From an uncultured Woeseiaceae bacterium (GTDB lineage Bacteria > Pseudomonadota > Gammaproteobacteria > Steroidobacterales > Woeseiaceae): a DNA stretch of 64,000 bases. The position numbers and the translations under genes were made by a program. Location of the stretch: positions 1-64,000 of the forward strand of contig CAJQPL010000010.1 in NCBI GenBank assembly GCA_905480215.1, written 5' to 3'. Each line of letters opens with the position of its first letter. Position 1 is the first letter of the stretch. Under the pieces are notes generated by a model, which was given only the letters and a program-made list of their open reading frames with translations, had not been told where the DNA came from and did no database searches. Shown one piece after another: positions 26,690 to 35,941 of the stretch.

Positions 26690-27186
26690 AGTTCAATTGA
26701 AAAAGGCACAGTTGCTGAAAGGCAATCTCGCAAAGCCACCGGTCTACGGAGCGCGCCATCGGCGGCGCTATTTCATCACCTTGTGTGGGGCCTGGAATCG
26801 GCGATAAGGCGTCAATGTTGTCGGCGCAGCTTGTTAGTCTGAAAGTCGTTACAGCAAGCGGCAAACTTATGAAGGTGAACGATACGCAACGTCACCTTCT
26901 AAACGCGTTTCGCCTGAGTTACGGCATGTTGGGGATCATCTACGAAGTAACGCTGCGAGTACGTCCGATTATGAATTTCGCTGCGAGCCACCGCAGTATG
27001 GATGTCGATGCGTTTGCAAATATTTCAGACCGACTCGCGACGCTTATGTCGAGCAAACCTATGCCGGGCGAATGGACTTTTTTCGCAAGATCAGGCGACA
27101 ACTTGACCCTGAAGATAGGCTGCTTAACCCATATTTGGCGCGATACTTTAAGTAAGAGCGAAGCTCGAAACATTCGTAGCTTCTGA
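26690..27186 (+). pseudogene. Remnant of an FAD-linked oxidase (PCMH-type)
   Basis: The frame from about 26740 to 27186 reads IGGAISSPCVGPGIGDKASM, then LSAQLVSLKVVTASGKLMKV and SYGMLGIIYEVTLRVRP, the standard middle of FAD-binding_4 oxidases such as arabinonolactone or gulonolactone oxidase. Just upstream another frame gives GNLAKPPVYGA, which would precede it in an intact gene, indicating a frameshift near 26750. The N-terminal flavinylation region and the C-terminal substrate domain are missing. I read it as a decayed fragment with no intact start. Confidence 0.65.
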
Positions 27187-27261
27187 TGAATCCTCATAAA
27201 TACCTGTTTTTATTAGAAATTATGCTTCATAGCAGCAATTCTTCTATCTGTGCACTGGTTT

Positions 27262-27300
27262 TTATATATCGGACTGATAGTATGCATCGCCCCGATATAT
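27262..27300. promoter_or_regulatory. Inverted repeat upstream of padR (candidate operator)
   Basis: A perfect 10-bp inverted repeat, TATATATCGG (27262-27271) and CCGATATATA (27291-27300), has a 19-bp spacer and ends 15 bases before the PadR start codon. PadR regulators usually repress their own operon from such a site. Binding is inference. Confidence 0.6.
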
Positions 27301-27315
27301 ACTCACGAGCTCAAG

Positions 27316-27858
27316 ATGGATGTCAAAACAGTTTGCCTCGGAATGCTAACGGACGGTCCTGCTTCTGGCTATGACCTGAAAAAGCAATTCGAATCCACGT
27401 TCGCACATTTTTTTGCGGCCGGCTACGGGTCGATCTACCCCGCTCTCTCATCGTTGGCAGAAAAAGGTTTCGTTACTTGCGAACACGTTCCGCAGGACGG
27501 CAAGCCCGATCGCAAGGTGTACGAGATCACCGATACTGGTCGGGCATGTCTTCTGAGTTCGCTCGATGATCCGGCACCTGGCCACAAAGTTCGATCCGAT
27601 TTTCTGGCAACGATGTGTTTCTCGCATTTGATGACAAACAGTCAGGTCGAAACGGTCTTGAATAATCTTACTGGAGAGATTGAATTTCAACAGAAGTTGA
27701 TTGCTGACATGCAAGCCACATGCGCACACGACTGGCCCGTCGGCAAATGCTTTGTTGCCGGTTTTGGCGAGACCATGACGGCGGCCATAAAGAAATATAT
27801 CGAAGATAATCGACATACGCTTACAGAAGATACGGCACCAAAAGTCGCTGCCCGTTAG
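27316..27858 (+). CDS. PadR-family transcriptional regulator
   Basis: 180 aa from the ATG at 27316; the earlier start in the track lies before the inverted repeat. A winged helix (about residues 5-80: LGMLTDGPASGYDLKKQFE, then YPALSSLAEKGFVTCEHV and GKPDRKVYEITDTGR) is followed by a C-terminal dimerisation region typical of PadR subfamily-1. It precedes an RND adaptor by eight bases, so it most likely represses that efflux pair. PadR proteins more often control ABC or MFS pumps, which makes this pairing uncommon. Confidence 0.92.
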   Translation: MDVKTVCLGMLTDGPASGYDLKKQFESTFAHFFAAGYGSIYPALSSLAEKGFVTCEHVPQDGKPDRKVYEITDTGRACLLSSLDDPAPGHKVRSDFLATMCFSHLMTNSQVETVLNNLTGEIEFQQKLIADMQATCAHDWPVGKCFVAGFGETMTAAIKKYIEDNRHTLTEDTAPKVAAR

Positions 27859-27866
27859 GAACGAAC

Positions 27867-29000
27867 ATGCAACAAAGTACTTATAACAAATACAAATCCT
27901 GGCTGGTCTCTGCGGGCATCGCTGTTGCTGTTGCTGTCTGGCTGGCCTCGGGACAAATCGGTGACGACGAAGCGCCTCCTGCTACGGCTGCGGCCACAGC
28001 CACTTCTAGCGAATCCAAAAATGCAGTTCGAGTTCGACATCAAACAGCGGAATTGGTGCAGCGAACGATCACCGTTAACGGCAAGACGGCGCCCGCACGG
28101 TCGGTGGCGTTAGCCGCCCAGACGGAAGGACGTATTGACAGCATCGGCGCAGAGCGTGGATCCAACATGGAACGCGGCGACCTAATCGTGCGTCTTGATG
28201 AACGCGACCGCACAGCCAGGCTTCTGCAATCTGAGGCAACCGTCAAACAACGCGAGGTCGAGTACGAAGCAAGACTCAAACTGAAGTCGTCAAGTTATGT
28301 ATCAGAATCCCAACTACAGGAAGCTGTAGCTCTTCTAGAGGTGGCAAGAGCCGACCTGACCCGGGCTAAATTGGATTTGGACTACATGACCATCCGTGCG
28401 CCCTTTGGCGGCGCGCTTCAAGACCGAGCAGTTGAAGTTGGTGATTTCGTGAAAGTAGGCGAGGCCATCGCTACTTATGTCGACAACCGCATGATTATTG
28501 TATCTGCGAATTTGTCAGAATTTGATGCTCATCATGTCAGTGTCGGCGATCAAGCGGAGGCTCAGCTGGCAACAGGAGAGACTGTAGAAGGTCGTATACG
28601 CTATGTCGCGCCGGTTGCAGATGAAGCCACTCGGACTTTCGGCGTTGAGCTTGAAATAGACAACTCGGACGGTGAGTTGCGGATAGGAGGAACAGCTGTC
28701 CTCAAAATTCCTGCTGAAGAGACTCTGGCGCATCGCGTGTCACCGTCGCTCCTCACACTCGACGATGCTGGCAATATTGGCATCAAGATTATTGGCGAGA
28801 ATGGCTTGGTCGAGTTTGTTGTCGCAGACATAGCATTGTCCACAAACAATGGCGTCTGGCTGGCCGGATTACCACAGGATGCAACCATCATCACCGTAGG
28901 CCAGGGATACGTCTCAAATGGCGCGCGCGTCAATGCAGTGCCCGAAGACGATATAGATACTGCGGTCGCGATCAAGTCAGGTACTGAGGCCAACGACTAA
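27867..29000 (+). CDS. RND efflux periplasmic adaptor (membrane fusion protein)
   Basis: 377 aa. An N-terminal hydrophobic helix (about residues 10-26), with no lipobox, anchors it. The biotinyl-lipoyl half-motifs (ALAAQTEGRIDSIGAERGSN and LDYMTIRAPFGGALQDRAVE) flank a short coiled-coil hairpin. Beta-barrel and membrane-proximal domains follow. The adaptor links the inner-membrane RND pump to an outer-membrane channel. Its TAA stop overlaps the pump gene as TAATG. Confidence 0.93.
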   Translation: MQQSTYNKYKSWLVSAGIAVAVAVWLASGQIGDDEAPPATAAATATSSESKNAVRVRHQTAELVQRTITVNGKTAPARSVALAAQTEGRIDSIGAERGSNMERGDLIVRLDERDRTARLLQSEATVKQREVEYEARLKLKSSSYVSESQLQEAVALLEVARADLTRAKLDLDYMTIRAPFGGALQDRAVEVGDFVKVGEAIATYVDNRMIIVSANLSEFDAHHVSVGDQAEAQLATGETVEGRIRYVAPVADEATRTFGVELEIDNSDGELRIGGTAVLKIPAEETLAHRVSPSLLTLDDAGNIGIKIIGENGLVEFVVADIALSTNNGVWLAGLPQDATIITVGQGYVSNGARVNAVPEDDIDTAVAIKSGTEAND

Positions 29001-32000
29001 TGAGCATCATTGAGACAGCAATGTTGCGGTCACGAACTGTGATCTTGTCATTGCTTATCGTTTTGATCGGCGGCGCCGTCACCTACACGACCATCCCCAA
29101 GGAAGCCGAGCCGGATATAGAAATTCCGATCGTTTATATAAGCATCAATCACGACGGAATTTCGCCCGAGGATGCAGAGCGTCTCCTGGTTCGTGTATTA
29201 GAGCAGGAATTGCGATCCATCGAAGGCATCAAGGAAATGACTGCCAATGCCTACGAAGGCGGTGCGAATGTACAGCTGGAGTTTGATGCAGGCGTTGATA
29301 CGAAGGTCGCACTGCAAGATGTTCGTGAAAAAGTTGACATGGCGAAGGCGGAGCTGCCTGGCGACACCGATGAACCGACCGTAAGCGAAGTCAAAGTGTC
29401 CCGCTTCGATCCAATGCTCGTCCTTAATCTTGCTGGCAACGTTCCAGAAAGAATGCTCACCAGAATAGCTGTCGATCTGAAAGAAAAAATCGAGAGTATC
29501 GTTGGCGTACTTGAAGTGAACCTGATCGGTACTCGTGAGGAGCTGATGGAGGTTGTGATTGATCCATTGGCGATGGAAAGTTACGGCCTTGATCAGGCGC
29601 AGATTATTCAGTTCGTCGATCGTAACAATCGCCTGGTCGCCGCCGGAGCGCTGCATTCAAGCGAGGGCCGCTTCCCGGTAAAGATTCCCGGTGTCTTTGA
29701 AAGTGCCGCCGACGTTCTCGATATGCCGATAAAGGCCGTCGGCGAGCGGGTGGTTCATTTTAAGGACATCGCAGAAGTTCGGCGGACCTATAAGGACGCT
29801 GAAAGTGTGGCACGACTCAACGGCAAGCCAGCGCTCGCCATTGAAGTCGTGCAACGCGGTGGCGCAAACGTCATCGAGACTATTGCATCGATAAAGGCGC
29901 TCTTGGCTGAAGAAAAGAAAATGTGGCCTCAGACCATCGAGATAGTCGCATCGCGTGACAAGTCGAAAGATGTCAATGACATGTTGTCTGAGTTGCAGAA
30001 TAACGTTCTGTCCGCGGTGCTTCTGGTCTTCATTGTAATTATCGGCATTCTCGGAATCCGTTCCGCATTGTTGGTCGGTGTTGCGATTCCCGGTAGCTTC
30101 TTGATGGGTATTTTATTGATTGGTTCGTTTGGCGTCACGATCAATATGATGGTTTTGTTTGCCTTGATTATGGCGGTAGGCATGTTGGTAGATGGCGCTA
30201 TCGTTGTGACCGAGATGGCTGACAGGCGAATGGCTGAAGGTGAGTCCAGGCACGACGCGTATTCCCGAGCTGCCATCCGCATGTCGTGGCCAATTATCGC
30301 ATCAACATGTACAACGCTCGCAGCCTTTGTACCGCTGGCTTTCTGGCCCGGTCAATCCGGCGAGTTTATGAAATTTTTGCCTATTACTCTTATTGCCGTT
30401 TTAGCAGCATCGTTGGTCATGGCGCTACTATTCGTACCTACTCTCGGGTCCATTTTCGGCAAGACGGGTGCGAATACCGAAGAATCTCGGCGCAACCTGG
30501 CTGCCGCAGAGACCGGTGATCTAGAAACCGTATCCGGATTCACTGGTCGATATATCAGATTCTTACAAGCTTCCTTAAAGCGTCCTTGGTTAAATGTTGG
30601 TGCTGTTTCGCTGCTTTTGATATCTATCTACACAGCCTTTATCTTTTTTGGCAAAGGCGTCGAATATTTTCCTGAGGTCGAACAACCATTTGGAATGATC
30701 GACATCCGTGCGCGTGGCGATCAATCAACAGCAGAACGAGACAACCTGGTTCGTCAAGTTGAAGAGCGCGTTCTCGGTATGCCCGAGATCGAATTCTTGT
30801 ATGCGAAGACCGGCGAAAACGATCAGGGGGCCGAGGATCAGATCGGGACATTGACGTTGAACTACATTGAATGGGATCAACGGCGAAAGGCGGATGACAT
30901 TCTTGCAGAAATACGCGATCGAACTTCTGATCTTGTAGGCATAAGAATCGAACCACGAAAACCCGATATGGGTCCGCCTATGGGGAAACCGATTCGCATT
31001 GAATTTGTATCGCGCTTCGATGATGCGCTCGAAGACTCGGTCGCTGAAGTACGCAGGGTGATGGAGGCCACCAGCGGCATTGTCAATATTGAAGACAGTC
31101 GACCACTGCCGGGTATTGAATGGCAAATCAAAGTCGATCGCGCAGAGGCCGCGCGATTCGGTGCTGATATATCATTGGTTGGCGCCATGGTTCAGCTGGT
31201 AACCAACGGCATTAAGATTGGTGAGTATCGACCGGATGATAGTGATGAAGAAATCGACATTCGCGTGCGCTATCCGGAAAGTAGTCGAAGTCTTTCGCAG
31301 ATAGACGAACTCCGCATTCCGTCAGAGCAAGGACTGGTTCCGATCAGCACTTTCGTAAAACGAGTTCCCGCGCAAAAAGTCGGCAATATCCAGCGCATCG
31401 ATATGCGTCGAATGATGTCGATTGACGCCGATGTCGATGCCGAATTTCTTGTCAACGATGTCGTCGCAGAACTTCGTCAGGAAATGCCGAGTCTGAAAAT
31501 CGACCCGCGTGTCAGTATGACTTTCGGTGGAAGTACGCAGGACCAAGAGGACGATCAGGCGTTCCTCGCCAAGGCGATGCTCATAGCGCTCGCAGCCATG
31601 GCGATTATTTTGGTCACGCAATTTAATAGCATCTATCAAGCTGGCTTGATCCTGACGGCGGTAGTTTTCTCGACCGGGGGTGTAATGCTGGGACTCCTGA
31701 TAACCGGCAAAGCGTTTGGCGTAATAATGAGCAGCATCGGAGTCATCACCCTCGCTGGCATTGTCGTCAATAACAATATCGTTCTGATCGATACCTACAA
31801 CGTATTGCGCGCCCGGGGCAAGCAGCCGTTTGAGGCGATAATGCGAACCTGCGCTATTCGCCTGCGCCCCGTCCTGTTAACAACCGTTACGACGATTGTG
31901 GGTTTGATGCCAATGGTATTCGGCGTCAATATCAATCTCGTTGACCGATCGGTGTCCATTGGAGCTCCCAGCTCCCAATGGTGGTCTCAACTGGCATCTG

Positions 32001-32143
32001 CGGTCGCGGGTGGGCTGGCATTCGCTACCATTTTGACCTTGGTACTTACGCCAAGCCTCCTCATGATTCAGGCCAATGTCCGTTCCAAGATTGCGGATCG
32101 TCGGAAACGTATTGCTGGCGCCGCGACGCCCGCCACGCATTAG
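29000..32143 (+). CDS. RND efflux pump permease (AcrB family)
   Basis: 1047 aa inner-membrane proton-driven transporter. The two RND repeats each have the large periplasmic loop between TM1-2 and TM7-8. TM4 carries GMLVDGAIVV, with one Asp where AcrB has Asp-Asp, and TM10 carries GIVVNNNIVLID. The proton relay therefore keeps one of the two Asp residues and should be read with care. No outer-membrane factor is encoded here, so the pump likely shares a TolC-type channel. Regulated with the adaptor by the upstream PadR protein, by inference. Substrates not predictable. Confidence 0.93.
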   Translation: MSIIETAMLRSRTVILSLLIVLIGGAVTYTTIPKEAEPDIEIPIVYISINHDGISPEDAERLLVRVLEQELRSIEGIKEMTANAYEGGANVQLEFDAGVDTKVALQDVREKVDMAKAELPGDTDEPTVSEVKVSRFDPMLVLNLAGNVPERMLTRIAVDLKEKIESIVGVLEVNLIGTREELMEVVIDPLAMESYGLDQAQIIQFVDRNNRLVAAGALHSSEGRFPVKIPGVFESAADVLDMPIKAVGERVVHFKDIAEVRRTYKDAESVARLNGKPALAIEVVQRGGANVIETIASIKALLAEEKKMWPQTIEIVASRDKSKDVNDMLSELQNNVLSAVLLVFIVIIGILGIRSALLVGVAIPGSFLMGILLIGSFGVTINMMVLFALIMAVGMLVDGAIVVTEMADRRMAEGESRHDAYSRAAIRMSWPIIASTCTTLAAFVPLAFWPGQSGEFMKFLPITLIAVLAASLVMALLFVPTLGSIFGKTGANTEESRRNLAAAETGDLETVSGFTGRYIRFLQASLKRPWLNVGAVSLLLISIYTAFIFFGKGVEYFPEVEQPFGMIDIRARGDQSTAERDNLVRQVEERVLGMPEIEFLYAKTGENDQGAEDQIGTLTLNYIEWDQRRKADDILAEIRDRTSDLVGIRIEPRKPDMGPPMGKPIRIEFVSRFDDALEDSVAEVRRVMEATSGIVNIEDSRPLPGIEWQIKVDRAEAARFGADISLVGAMVQLVTNGIKIGEYRPDDSDEEIDIRVRYPESSRSLSQIDELRIPSEQGLVPISTFVKRVPAQKVGNIQRIDMRRMMSIDADVDAEFLVNDVVAELRQEMPSLKIDPRVSMTFGGSTQDQEDDQAFLAKAMLIALAAMAIILVTQFNSIYQAGLILTAVVFSTGGVMLGLLITGKAFGVIMSSIGVITLAGIVVNNNIVLIDTYNVLRARGKQPFEAIMRTCAIRLRPVLLTTVTTIVGLMPMVFGVNINLVDRSVSIGAPSSQWWSQLASAVAGGLAFATILTLVLTPSLLMIQANVRSKIADRRKRIAGAATPATH

Positions 32144-33033: not shown

Positions 33034-33909
33034 TTGAACACGACCAGGGCGGATAACATTGGAAAATCCATCACCTGGATCCTACTCGGCGTCTCGGGTG
33101 GGCTGGGTCTGGATTTGTGTGCAAAAGAACTTCTGCAGGATTATTCACTGCAAGAATTTATTTTTATACGCAGCGCCATCGGCGTGCTTGTTTTTCTATT
33201 AATAGCGCCGATCTTCTTCGGTGGCCACAAGATGCTGCACACAGCGCGTTGGAAGTGGCACGCGCTGCGATCCACGCTAGCAATCGGTGCTATGTATGGA
33301 TTCTTTTACGGCCTTTCGAAAATGCCGCTTGTTAATGCGCTGACCCTGGGTTTCACAGCACCGCTAATGGTCACAGCATTATCGAGCATCTTCCTCGGTG
33401 ACCATATCGGGCGGCACCGTTGGGGCGCTGTGGTTGTTGGGTTTATCGGTACGTTAGTCATGCTGCGCCCGGGAAGTGGCGAGTTTACCTTCGCCTCGAT
33501 GGCTATATTGATAGCTGCATTCTGCTATGCGACGCAGGCAATTACGGCACGTTATCTTAAAGATGAATCGATGCTGTCGATGGCAGTCTATGTCGTGCTC
33601 GGTCCGATGTTGGTCGCGAGTTTCTTTATCAACAACGAAACGTGGATTACGCCAGACAGCAAAGGTTGGATATTGATGCTTGGCGCCGGACTATGCTCCG
33701 TCGTAACCTGGATCGGGTTCATCAACGGCTATCGCGGAACATCGCCCGCTATTCTGGCGCCGTTCGAGTACGCAGCACTAATCGGCGGAGCAATTGCCGG
33801 CTATCTAATTTGGGGAGAAGTTCCCGACCGCTGGGTACTCGCCGGAGGAATGATCATTATCGCCTCCGGCCTATATGTCGTTTATAGAGAAGTCGGTCGA
33901 CTAAACTAG
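33034..33909 (+). CDS. DMT-family transporter (two EamA domains)
   Basis: 291 aa with about ten membrane helices in two EamA halves, the second beginning near residue 150 (FASMAILIAAFCYATQAITARYL). Drug/metabolite transporters export amino acids, nucleotides or drugs; no substrate can be read here. The start is TTG without a strong ribosome site, preceded by a 14-codon ATG-initiated ORF in another frame that overlaps it. It overlaps the convergent TerB gene by four bases. Confidence 0.85.
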   Translation: MNTTRADNIGKSITWILLGVSGGLGLDLCAKELLQDYSLQEFIFIRSAIGVLVFLLIAPIFFGGHKMLHTARWKWHALRSTLAIGAMYGFFYGLSKMPLVNALTLGFTAPLMVTALSSIFLGDHIGRHRWGAVVVGFIGTLVMLRPGSGEFTFASMAILIAAFCYATQAITARYLKDESMLSMAVYVVLGPMLVASFFINNETWITPDSKGWILMLGAGLCSVVTWIGFINGYRGTSPAILAPFEYAALIGGAIAGYLIWGEVPDRWVLAGGMIIIASGLYVVYREVGRLN

Positions 33910-34352
33910 TCAATATCTCCAGCGACAAAACCCGCGATCTCCGATGGTGTGGCCTGCAATGCAATAGCAACCCGATCAAAGAAATCAACTTCAAGCACGC
34001 TGACATTGCTATCGCTACGAAACACATCGGCAAGCGCGCCAATGACGGTAGAGCGTTGCGCGATAGATAGTTTCTTGCGCACGCTGCCAAGATACTTGCG
34101 CAACGTTGCTTCTGCATATAACTCAGAGCGCGCCGCTACCCGGATATCAGCCGAGCTGAATTCTTCGCCAGTACAATTCTTAAGAATCGCCTGAATCCTC
34201 TCGACCTCAACACTTTGAATATTGATATCAGCGTCGGCCGCACGCGCAAGCGTCATTAGCAAGACTTCTTTGAACAGCTCATTCTGCTGCTCGCCGCTGA
34301 CTTCAGCCCCGCCGAAGAGATTGAGGACGTTCTTAAGATCTGCAATTGCCAT
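33906..34352 (-). CDS. TerB-family protein
   Basis: 148 aa single-domain helical protein matching the TerB fold: NELFKEVLLMTLARAADADI, then a second metal-binding-type helix with LEVDFFDRVAIAL. TerB proteins, named for tellurite resistance, bind Ca2+ or other metals and occur in membrane-stress complexes; isolated copies are common and of unknown role. The gene starts with ATG and AGAGAACAACC upstream. Confidence 0.85.
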   Translation of the reverse strand: MAIADLKNVLNLFGGAEVSGEQQNELFKEVLLMTLARAADADINIQSVEVERIQAILKNCTGEEFSSADIRVAARSELYAEATLRKYLGSVRKKLSIAQRSTVIGALADVFRSDSNVSVLEVDFFDRVAIALQATPSEIAGFVAGDID

Positions 34353-34493
34353 GGTTGTTCTCTTTTTTTATATGGTTGGCTGAGCGGGTAATAATAACCC
34401 GAATAACACAGACTATTGAAGGCGTTTTTTAAACTTATTTTCTTTTTGGAATTTATACACTTACAGGAGATACTGGGGTCGGGCAAATAAACA

Positions 34494-34508
34494 AAAGGAG
34501 GTGATCCA
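34494..34508 (+). promoter_or_regulatory. Extended Shine-Dalgarno, 15-nt match to the 16S 3' end
   Basis: AAAGGAGGTGATCCA is the exact complement of the 16S rRNA 3' end (TGGATCACCTCCTTT) over 15 bases. GGAGG ends six bases before the ATG at 34508, the best spacing. Such a long match is very rare and would bind 30S subunits tightly. Confidence 0.7.
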
Positions 34509-34588
34509 TGTCTAGTGGGATAACAGAGGTATCTAGAAAACTCAGAGTTCTGAAACGAATGACGGAGCATCGTCACGAATTTCACTGA
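34508..34588 (+). CDS. 26-residue ORF after an extreme ribosome binding site
   Basis: Encodes MSSGITEVSRKLRVLKRMTE plus six more residues, a basic peptide with no membrane helix or signal. It is too short for the ORF track, but has the strongest Shine-Dalgarno in the window and is followed 28 bases after its stop by a strong terminator, so it forms a unit of its own on the + strand between two minus-strand genes. The product could be a tiny functional protein, or the ORF may be incidental to an RNA that binds ribosomes. No family recognised. Confidence 0.5.
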   Translation: MSSGITEVSRKLRVLKRMTEHRHEFH

Positions 34589-34616
34589 CTCTCCTTTTTA
34601 GACACCCAGTCTCACA

Positions 34617-34649
34617 GAAGGCCGCAGCGATGCGGCCTTCTTTGTTTTT
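34617..34649 (+). terminator. Strong intrinsic terminator
   Basis: GAAGGCCGCA (34617-34626) and TGCGGCCTTC (34631-34640) form a perfect 10-bp stem with the loop GCGA, followed by TTTGTTTTT. The T tract is only on the + side, so it ends a + strand transcript, which can only be that of the tiny ORF. Confidence 0.88.
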
Positions 34650-34669: not shown

Positions 34670-35941
34670 TCAGGTAGCCAGAATTGGGCCCAGTGCTTCT
34701 AACAATTCGTCTATTTCCGACTTGCTATTGTAATGCACAGGTCCGACCCGAATTGCGCCGCCCGACTCGTGTATGCCCAGTACTTTCACGGCTTCAACAG
34801 CGTAGTTGTGGCCGCTCCAGACGAAGATATTCTGGTGTGCAAGCGCTTCGGCGACAACGTCCGGCGCTACGCTTGCATGCGTGAAGGAAACCGTGGGCAC
34901 TCGACGGTCGTACGCATCGACCGCAGTTACGCCTTGCACGGTGATACCAGCAATCGAAGTGAGTCCATCAATTAAATGGCTAGCCAGTTCTTTTTCATAG
35001 TCGAACAACAAGCTCATGGCAGCATGAACATCCCTGCGACGACCTGAGAATTGCGACCATTCGCTGGCGTATTCTGTTGCCATCGATGAACCGATCGAGG
35101 CGAAGTAGTCGATAGTTGCTGTTATCCCAGCGATCCCTTCATGACTCTGTGTTCCGGTTTCGAAGCACCACGGCAGCTCAGCTGGCGACGGACGAACTTT
35201 ATAGGGTTCGAGTTGTTCCATCACATCCCGACGACCCCACAGTATTCCCTGGTGCGGGCCGAAAAACTTGTAGGATGAACAAACAAAAAAATCGCAACCC
35301 ATATCCTGAACATCAGTTGCGATATGTGGGGCCGATTGAACGCCGTCAATGAATGACATTGCCCCGGCGGCGCGTGCTTTCGCACAGATCGTTTTGACGT
35401 CATTAATCGTGCCGATGAGGTTACTGGCGCCGCCGACACAAACCAGGCGCGTGCGCTCGCTGATGAGCTCATCCAGCACTTGCAGATCAAACTCGTAGGT
35501 CTCGGCGCTAAACGGCAACCATTTCACCTCGAGATCAAGGTCTCGAGCTAACAGCACCCATGGCCATACGTTCGCATCGTGGTCCATCTGCGAGACGATA
35601 ATTTCATCACCAGCTTGCAGCAGTCGACCAATCGATCGCGACAAGTGCAAGGTCATGGTTGTCATGTTCTGACCGAAGACGATTTCGTCAGCGGACGGTG
35701 CATTAATAAAGTCAGCCATTGCTTCTCTGGCGGACAAAACGACCGCATCTGCAGCAACTGCCGTCGCGAAGTAACCGCCGAGATTCGCATTTGTATTGAG
35801 TAAACAGTCGGACACCGCATTCGCAACCACACTGGGTACTTGAGTACCGGCCGGGTTGTCAAAATAAATTCGGCGCATGCCGTTATCACTTAGCGCTAGC
35901 GCAGGAAACTGCGCGCGCACTGCTTCAAGATCGAAAGACAT
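34670..35941 (-). CDS. Cysteine desulfurase-like class-V aminotransferase (TIGR01976 type)
   Basis: 423 aa PLP enzyme of the NifS/SufS superfamily. The PLP Lys is in SSYKFFGPHQGI, and DGVQSAPHIATDVQDMG precedes it; RIYFDNPAGTQVP is the subgroup's N-terminal signature. It lacks the Cys-bearing loop of typical desulfurases and has no isc/suf genes nearby, so it may act on another amino acid. The next gene upstream, a small hypothetical, starts four bases away and is probably cotranscribed. Confidence 0.88.
   Translation of the reverse strand: MSFDLEAVRAQFPALALSDNGMRRIYFDNPAGTQVPSVVANAVSDCLLNTNANLGGYFATAVAADAVVLSAREAMADFINAPSADEIVFGQNMTTMTLHLSRSIGRLLQAGDEIIVSQMDHDANVWPWVLLARDLDLEVKWLPFSAETYEFDLQVLDELISERTRLVCVGGASNLIGTINDVKTICAKARAAGAMSFIDGVQSAPHIATDVQDMGCDFFVCSSYKFFGPHQGILWGRRDVMEQLEPYKVRPSPAELPWCFETGTQSHEGIAGITATIDYFASIGSSMATEYASEWSQFSGRRRDVHAAMSLLFDYEKELASHLIDGLTSIAGITVQGVTAVDAYDRRVPTVSFTHASVAPDVVAEALAHQNIFVWSGHNYAVEAVKVLGIHESGGAIRVGPVHYNSKSEIDELLEALGPILAT

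Follow-up and report, generated by a model that had tools for sequence, protein, structure and literature searches.

A candidate ribosome-operated small RNA with a near-maximal Shine-Dalgarno sequence and a mini-ORF in a Woeseiaceae bacterium and across Alphaproteobacteria

Here, we describe a tiny gene at positions 34494-34649 of a 64,000-nucleotide stretch of DNA from an uncultured Woeseiaceae bacterium, hereafter the window. The gene is real and, as stated in the original prediction, which was made from the letters of this stretch alone, it stands isolated between minus-strand genes, namely those for a TerB protein (33906-34352) and a class V aminotransferase (34670-35941). It would give rise to a free-standing, structured small RNA of about 170 nt (34481 to about 34649) with the following parts:

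34446 to 34474, forward strand: sigma70-like promoter read from the sequence, with -35 element TTGGAA (34446-34451), a 17-nt spacer and -10 element GATACT (34469-34474)
34481 to 34493, forward strand: putative RNA 5' end, placed by promoter spacing, and A-rich leader GGGCAAATAAACA
34494 to 34508, forward strand: extended Shine-Dalgarno sequence (SD), 15 nt complementary to the 16S rRNA 3' tail, its last base being the A of the ATG
34508 to 34588, forward strand: mini-ORF MSSGITEVSRKLRVLKRMTEHRHEFH, 26 codons for 26 amino acids, from ATG to TGA
34515 to 34521, forward strand: 5' strand of helix P1, GTGGGAT, equal to codons 3-5 (from the fold and a cross-lineage partner-swap test)
34560 to 34575, forward strand: apical hairpin TGACG-GAGCAT-CGTCA (from the fold), in the place of the motif GGAGCARCCTY seen in relatives
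34609 to 34615, forward strand: 3' strand of P1, GTCTCAC, directly 5' of the terminator (from the fold and the partner-swap test)
34616 to 34649, forward strand: intrinsic terminator, an 11-bp stem and a T tract (from terminator prediction; the stem covaries in the genus)

The promoter elements TTGG and (C/G)ATACT occupy the equivalent position in most same-genus copies, and the leader GGGCAAACAA is kept across 31 aligned copies; an automatic promoter scan returned only an unrelated match and did not report TTGGAA-N17-GATACT. The terminator stem (34616-34641) consists of 11 pairs, seven of them G-C, followed by TTGTTTTT. The original proposal of a functional unit that carries a terminator of its own is borne out, with one pair more than the 10 bp first counted. 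The fold of the 172-nt region is more stable than its shuffles (z = -3.9). Elsewhere in the window, a c-di-GMP-I riboswitch at 26695-26775 on the forward strand (38.8 bits, above the Rfam threshold) lies upstream of genes that we named from their translations as a PadR-like regulator (27250-27858) and a membrane-fusion/RND efflux pair (27867-32143).

The sequence AAAGGAGGTGATCCA at 34494-34508 runs into the ATG at 34508, with its GGAGG core 6 nt from the start codon, which confirms an exact 16S-tail complement of 15 nt that reaches into the ATG. Complementarity is stated against the near-universal ...UGGAUCACCUCCUU(U) 16S tail because a reverse-strand match search found no 16S 3' end in the organism's own assembly; one 16S end from a same-genus genome is presumably a contaminant, judging by its signature sequences. 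The earlier description of this SD as far beyond normal holds as well, given a predicted pairing energy of -26.8 kcal/mol as compared to -12.3 kcal/mol for an 8-nt SD. The genome-wide search for copies that had been proposed found the 15-mer once in the 2.17-Mb assembly (random expectation about 0.004 occurrences; none for the reversed control), and the 64-kb window holds no further perfect AAGGAGGTG.

A DNA search of 36 other same-genus genomes with the 221-nt region as query recovered the RNA locus in most of them, often with the same neighbours. Among the 34 copies, GGAGGTGAT is invariant, and the few changes in the SD are A to G or C to T and retain G-U pairing with the 16S tail. The ORF has 26 codons in 33 copies and is 15 nt longer in the remaining one, with three stop codons in use. 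When conservation of the ORF and of the SD were compared, as the original prediction had advised, the SD proved to be the best-conserved part of the locus; start, stop and frame are also kept, while the peptide sequence, apart from weakly conserved codons 9-22, is not. The terminator stem covaries within the genus, while P1 is almost invariant and thus offers little information at this level. In seven same-genus copies, one or two extra, near-identical tandem hairpins follow the terminator.

The locus appears, from sequence comparison, to be one branch of a large RNA family that occurs broadly in Alphaproteobacteria and sporadically in Gammaproteobacteria. The exact-pattern matches listed from GTDB contigs are nearly all alphaproteobacterial (Rhodobacterales, Sphingomonadales, Rhizobiales, Caulobacterales, Acetobacterales and other orders among them) and include a copy from a Woeseiaceae MAG. 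Exact matches were present in 9 of 369 sampled Gammaproteobacteria genomes, 36 of 200 sampled Pseudomonadota genomes and 50 of 91 sampled Rhizobiaceae genomes, the last sample comprising nearly one genome per genus; exact matching overlooks diverged copies, and a few single matches are non-members. A search that left codon 2 open matched 43 of 190 alphaproteobacterial genomes; of the 30 loci read, about 25 clearly represent this RNA. Conversely, in a broad sample of Alphaproteobacteria, sites with an anti-16S match of at least 12 nt right before a start codon almost always belong to this family. Outside the genus, members were detected via their SD, so that SD conservation among them is partly due to selection of the sequences; this bias is lessened by the genus set and by the search with codon 2 open. 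Normally there is one copy per genome. Plasmids gave no match to the Rhizobiaceae-type copy; ten matches fell on viral contigs, about half of them recognisable family members and the others ordinary phage genes or unclear. No study of the family was found in the open-licence articles searched. The family seems to be widespread and almost unrecognised, combining the strongest possible ribosome-binding sequence with a very short ORF in a conserved RNA structure.

Members follow one layout. An A-rich leader comes first, then the SD, which matches the complement of the 16S tail over about 14 nt, then RTG-UC, P1, a variable domain that contains the stop codon, the return strand of P1 and the terminator. 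The ORF spans 11-31 codons and ends inside the fold, the stop ending at nt 69 of a median 148 nt between RTG and terminator (medians). P1 starts directly after codon 2 and closes against the terminator foot. Its letters vary by lineage, for example GUGAG/CUCAC, CAUUGUC/GACAAUG and CAUGGU-CAGC/GCUG-ACCAUG. Across 143 non-redundant members, a member's own P1 strands pair at -13.5 kcal/mol as compared to -8.6 ± 0.26 kcal/mol for permuted partners, and none of 2000 permutations came close, although this is not a formal probability as the member sequences are related and not independent. P1 is strongly supported by this cross-lineage covariation and has the best support of all the parts. Near the ORF end, the hairpin motif GGAGCARCCTY occurs in distant lineages (six loci and the Rhizobiaceae copies) in differing frames.

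Single-sequence folding leaves the SD unpaired 40% on average. In Rhodobacterales and Bradyrhizobium, the SD or the start codon is predicted to lie within internal hairpins, with no free tail. Both predictions count against the gated RNA proposed below. Stretches resembling the 16S 3' tail (CACCTCGCTGGGATCGCC; CCTGGATCGTCGCCTCC) were also seen inside the ORF of three Bradyrhizobium copies and one Methylobacterium copy, and might base-pair in cis with the SD. Masking of the SD by an internal copy of the 16S tail was not adopted as a general feature; mean z by clade ranges from -2.3 to -0.7, the signal being clearest in Rhodobacterales and Bradyrhizobium and weak in the window's genus (z -1.2) and in Sphingomonadales (z -0.7).

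Start, stop and frame of the mini-ORF are probably under selection. ORF length is constant in four clades while the spacer after the stop varies (two exceptions, +15 and +6 nt). All of UAA, UAG and UGA serve as stops in these clades, and UGG, of which about six instances are expected from the clade counts if two letters varied independently, was not observed at the stop columns. None of 44 matches had a CTG start when the start letter was left free. In a Bradyrhizobium-type copy on a viral contig, the stop lies two codons later; its position can therefore shift slightly. A small mRNA for a functional micropeptide, equipped with a very strong SD, would account for this conservation of start, stop and frame, and in the window's genus also for the constant 26 amino acids in 33 of 34 copies, a recognisable GL-R-MEH core and weak purifying selection over codons 9-22 (pN/pS 0.63; 4 of 60 shuffles equally low). 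The weak conservation of these codons means that a local peptide role may exist in this genus. For the family as a whole, we consider a micropeptide unlikely: pN/pS values of 0.75, 1.35, 0.81 and 1.21 in the four clades, two of them above 1, all lie inside column-shuffle controls, peptides of different orders are unrelated, one and the same RNA motif (GGAGCARCCT) is read in different frames, and the ORF start is built into the covarying helix P1. The peptide sequence thus does not appear to be conserved, and the family would give a case of conserved translation without a conserved peptide.

These features suggest a ribosome-operated RNA switch over an ordinary peptide gene. Our explanation, for and against which we hold the chances to be about even, is a structured small RNA in which ribosome loading and translation gate the fold, the peptide itself being irrelevant. 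Ribosomes would be engaged through the SD, whose complementarity to the 16S tail is near-maximal. As P1 closes immediately downstream of codon 2, joining codons 3-5 to the terminator foot, the rest of the ORF and its stop would be held in the folded domain, and an initiating ribosome would have to open P1, a cost that SD:16S pairing should easily pay. In the window, the modelled cost of keeping the SD single-stranded is 4 kcal/mol, to which the opening of P1 and the first codons adds about 8 kcal/mol; set against a duplex of -26.8 kcal/mol, the ribosome can thus win against P1. With an ordinary SD, its advantage over P1 would be much smaller. Ribosome loading would thereby toggle the RNA: it would be closed while few SD-competent 30S subunits are available, and open and translated while there are many. 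Either the stability of the RNA or its pairing with other RNAs would in this way depend on free 30S subunits that are SD-competent. It is tempting, if rather doubtful, to go further and propose a widespread proteobacterial switch that responds to how many 30S subunits are free or to the state they are in. In such a switch, the 16S tail would act as ligand, the maximal SD as sensor and P1 as gate; translation of the mini-ORF, whatever its peptide, would be the trigger by which a trans-acting domain becomes exposed or protected.

An alternative is a 30S sponge or hibernation RNA, which would bind the 16S tail with its SD tail and so prevent initiation, translation being incidental. The near-maximal complementarity and the position of P1, which adjoins the start codon and opposes accommodation, would fit such a role; the selected start, stop and frame would be superfluous for a pure sponge, and a single gene copy would face thousands of ribosomes, which makes it a distinctly unlikely reading. 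The original prediction had suggested that the SD could sequester 30S subunits or slow ribosome escape, but conserved start, stop and frame argue for ribosome passage. That prediction is supported in part, namely in its claims on SD strength and on a unit with a terminator, less so in those on sequestration or slow escape, and it did not include the fold on the ORF start, the homology to RF01867, the promoter or the missing peptide conservation. Very unlikely, too, is an ordinary trans-acting sRNA that pairs with mRNAs and is merely protected from decay by ribosome loading: size, orphan promoter and terminator and the annotation of RF01867 as an sRNA agree with it, but besides the SD we noticed no conserved unpaired seed. 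That the SD arose by chance or with an inserted 16S fragment, which SD divergence in relatives was to indicate, has a negligible probability and was rejected, as the opposite was found: all SD changes in the 34 same-genus copies keep pairing via G-U, the same SD block recurs across Alphaproteobacteria, same-genus genomes carry the locus in the same position and with neighbours in common, and the 16S match is limited to 15 nt.

The gated small RNA that we favour is not a leader, since flanking genes differ between orders. A leader of a downstream gene, UpsM and CcnA were ruled out by position and neighbours, and a leader peptide or attenuator by the lack of a co-directional gene 3' of the terminator, the next gene (34670-35941) being on the reverse strand. 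A gene resembling the ribosome-rescue factor ArfB lies near the RNA, on either side, in five loci (three of Rhodobacterales, two of Hyphomonadaceae); this proximity possibly reflects shared ancestry or chance. Identity with SEP1 of Sinorhizobium, a 23-aa product with the highest translation efficiency among unannotated sORFs (PMC10117765), is not supported, as neither the sampled genome nearest Sinorhizobium nor the other Rhizobiaceae tested gave a match, except for one already-positive genome. The Bradyrhizobium member may be identical with a BjsR sRNA (PMC5082802).

The window RNA is a remote homologue, and no formal member, of the Rfam family RF01867 (sRNA CC2171, function unknown per Rfam), which it matches over the full length of the model (positions 1-159) at 29.8 bits (E 5.7e-5) as compared to a gathering score of 75. 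Seven of the eight other subgroup copies tested likewise score 28.8-54.6 bits, full length and below the threshold, and copies from Bosea and Brevundimonas pass it. RF01867 has the same order of parts, AAAGGAGGUGAUCCA, (G/A)UGUCU, closing helix and terminator, and covers only the Caulobacter-type subfamily of the wider RNA family. To our knowledge, the entry records neither the SD match nor the ORF. This little-studied entry is hereby widened to a family with members in two classes. According to a 2018 survey (PMC5988900), CrfA alone among the 27 Caulobacter RNAs reported in 2008 was characterised further.

UpsM of Rhodobacteraceae is an abundant alphaproteobacterial sRNA with a possible sORF and is the leader of mraZ; its sORF extends past the terminator (PMC5089854), whereas the ORF of our Rhodobacterales members ends before it, and they lie next to an ArfB-like gene and a VUT-like transporter. 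Among dual-function sRNAs, rnTrpL/peTrpL and Spot 42/SpfP (PMC10117765) are also small RNAs with a very short ORF. In its sequence, the window RNA shows a conserved putative promoter and terminator and an ORF with selected start, stop and frame, and may be of this kind; the dual-function sRNAs differ from it in that their targets are known or their peptide is functional, and in lacking a maximal SD fixed beside a closing helix. In Flavobacterium, rpsU (bS21) is autoregulated through an extended SD, and one exceptional SD per genome (below -13 kcal/mol) reports ribosome state (PMC9976891). The window RNA likewise has an exceptional SD (-26.8 kcal/mol) whose 15-mer occurs once in the assembly. 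The rpsU ORF encodes a ribosomal protein that closes the loop, whereas the 26-aa ORF encodes neither bS21 nor any other ribosomal protein, and the family has 11-31 codons, no conserved peptide and a structured, stand-alone RNA. The Flavobacterium gene is nonetheless a precedent for one extreme SD per genome reporting ribosome state, and the idea of an RNA that senses ribosome availability via SD strength can now be tested in tractable strains of Caulobacter, Bradyrhizobium, Sphingomonas and Rhodobacterales.
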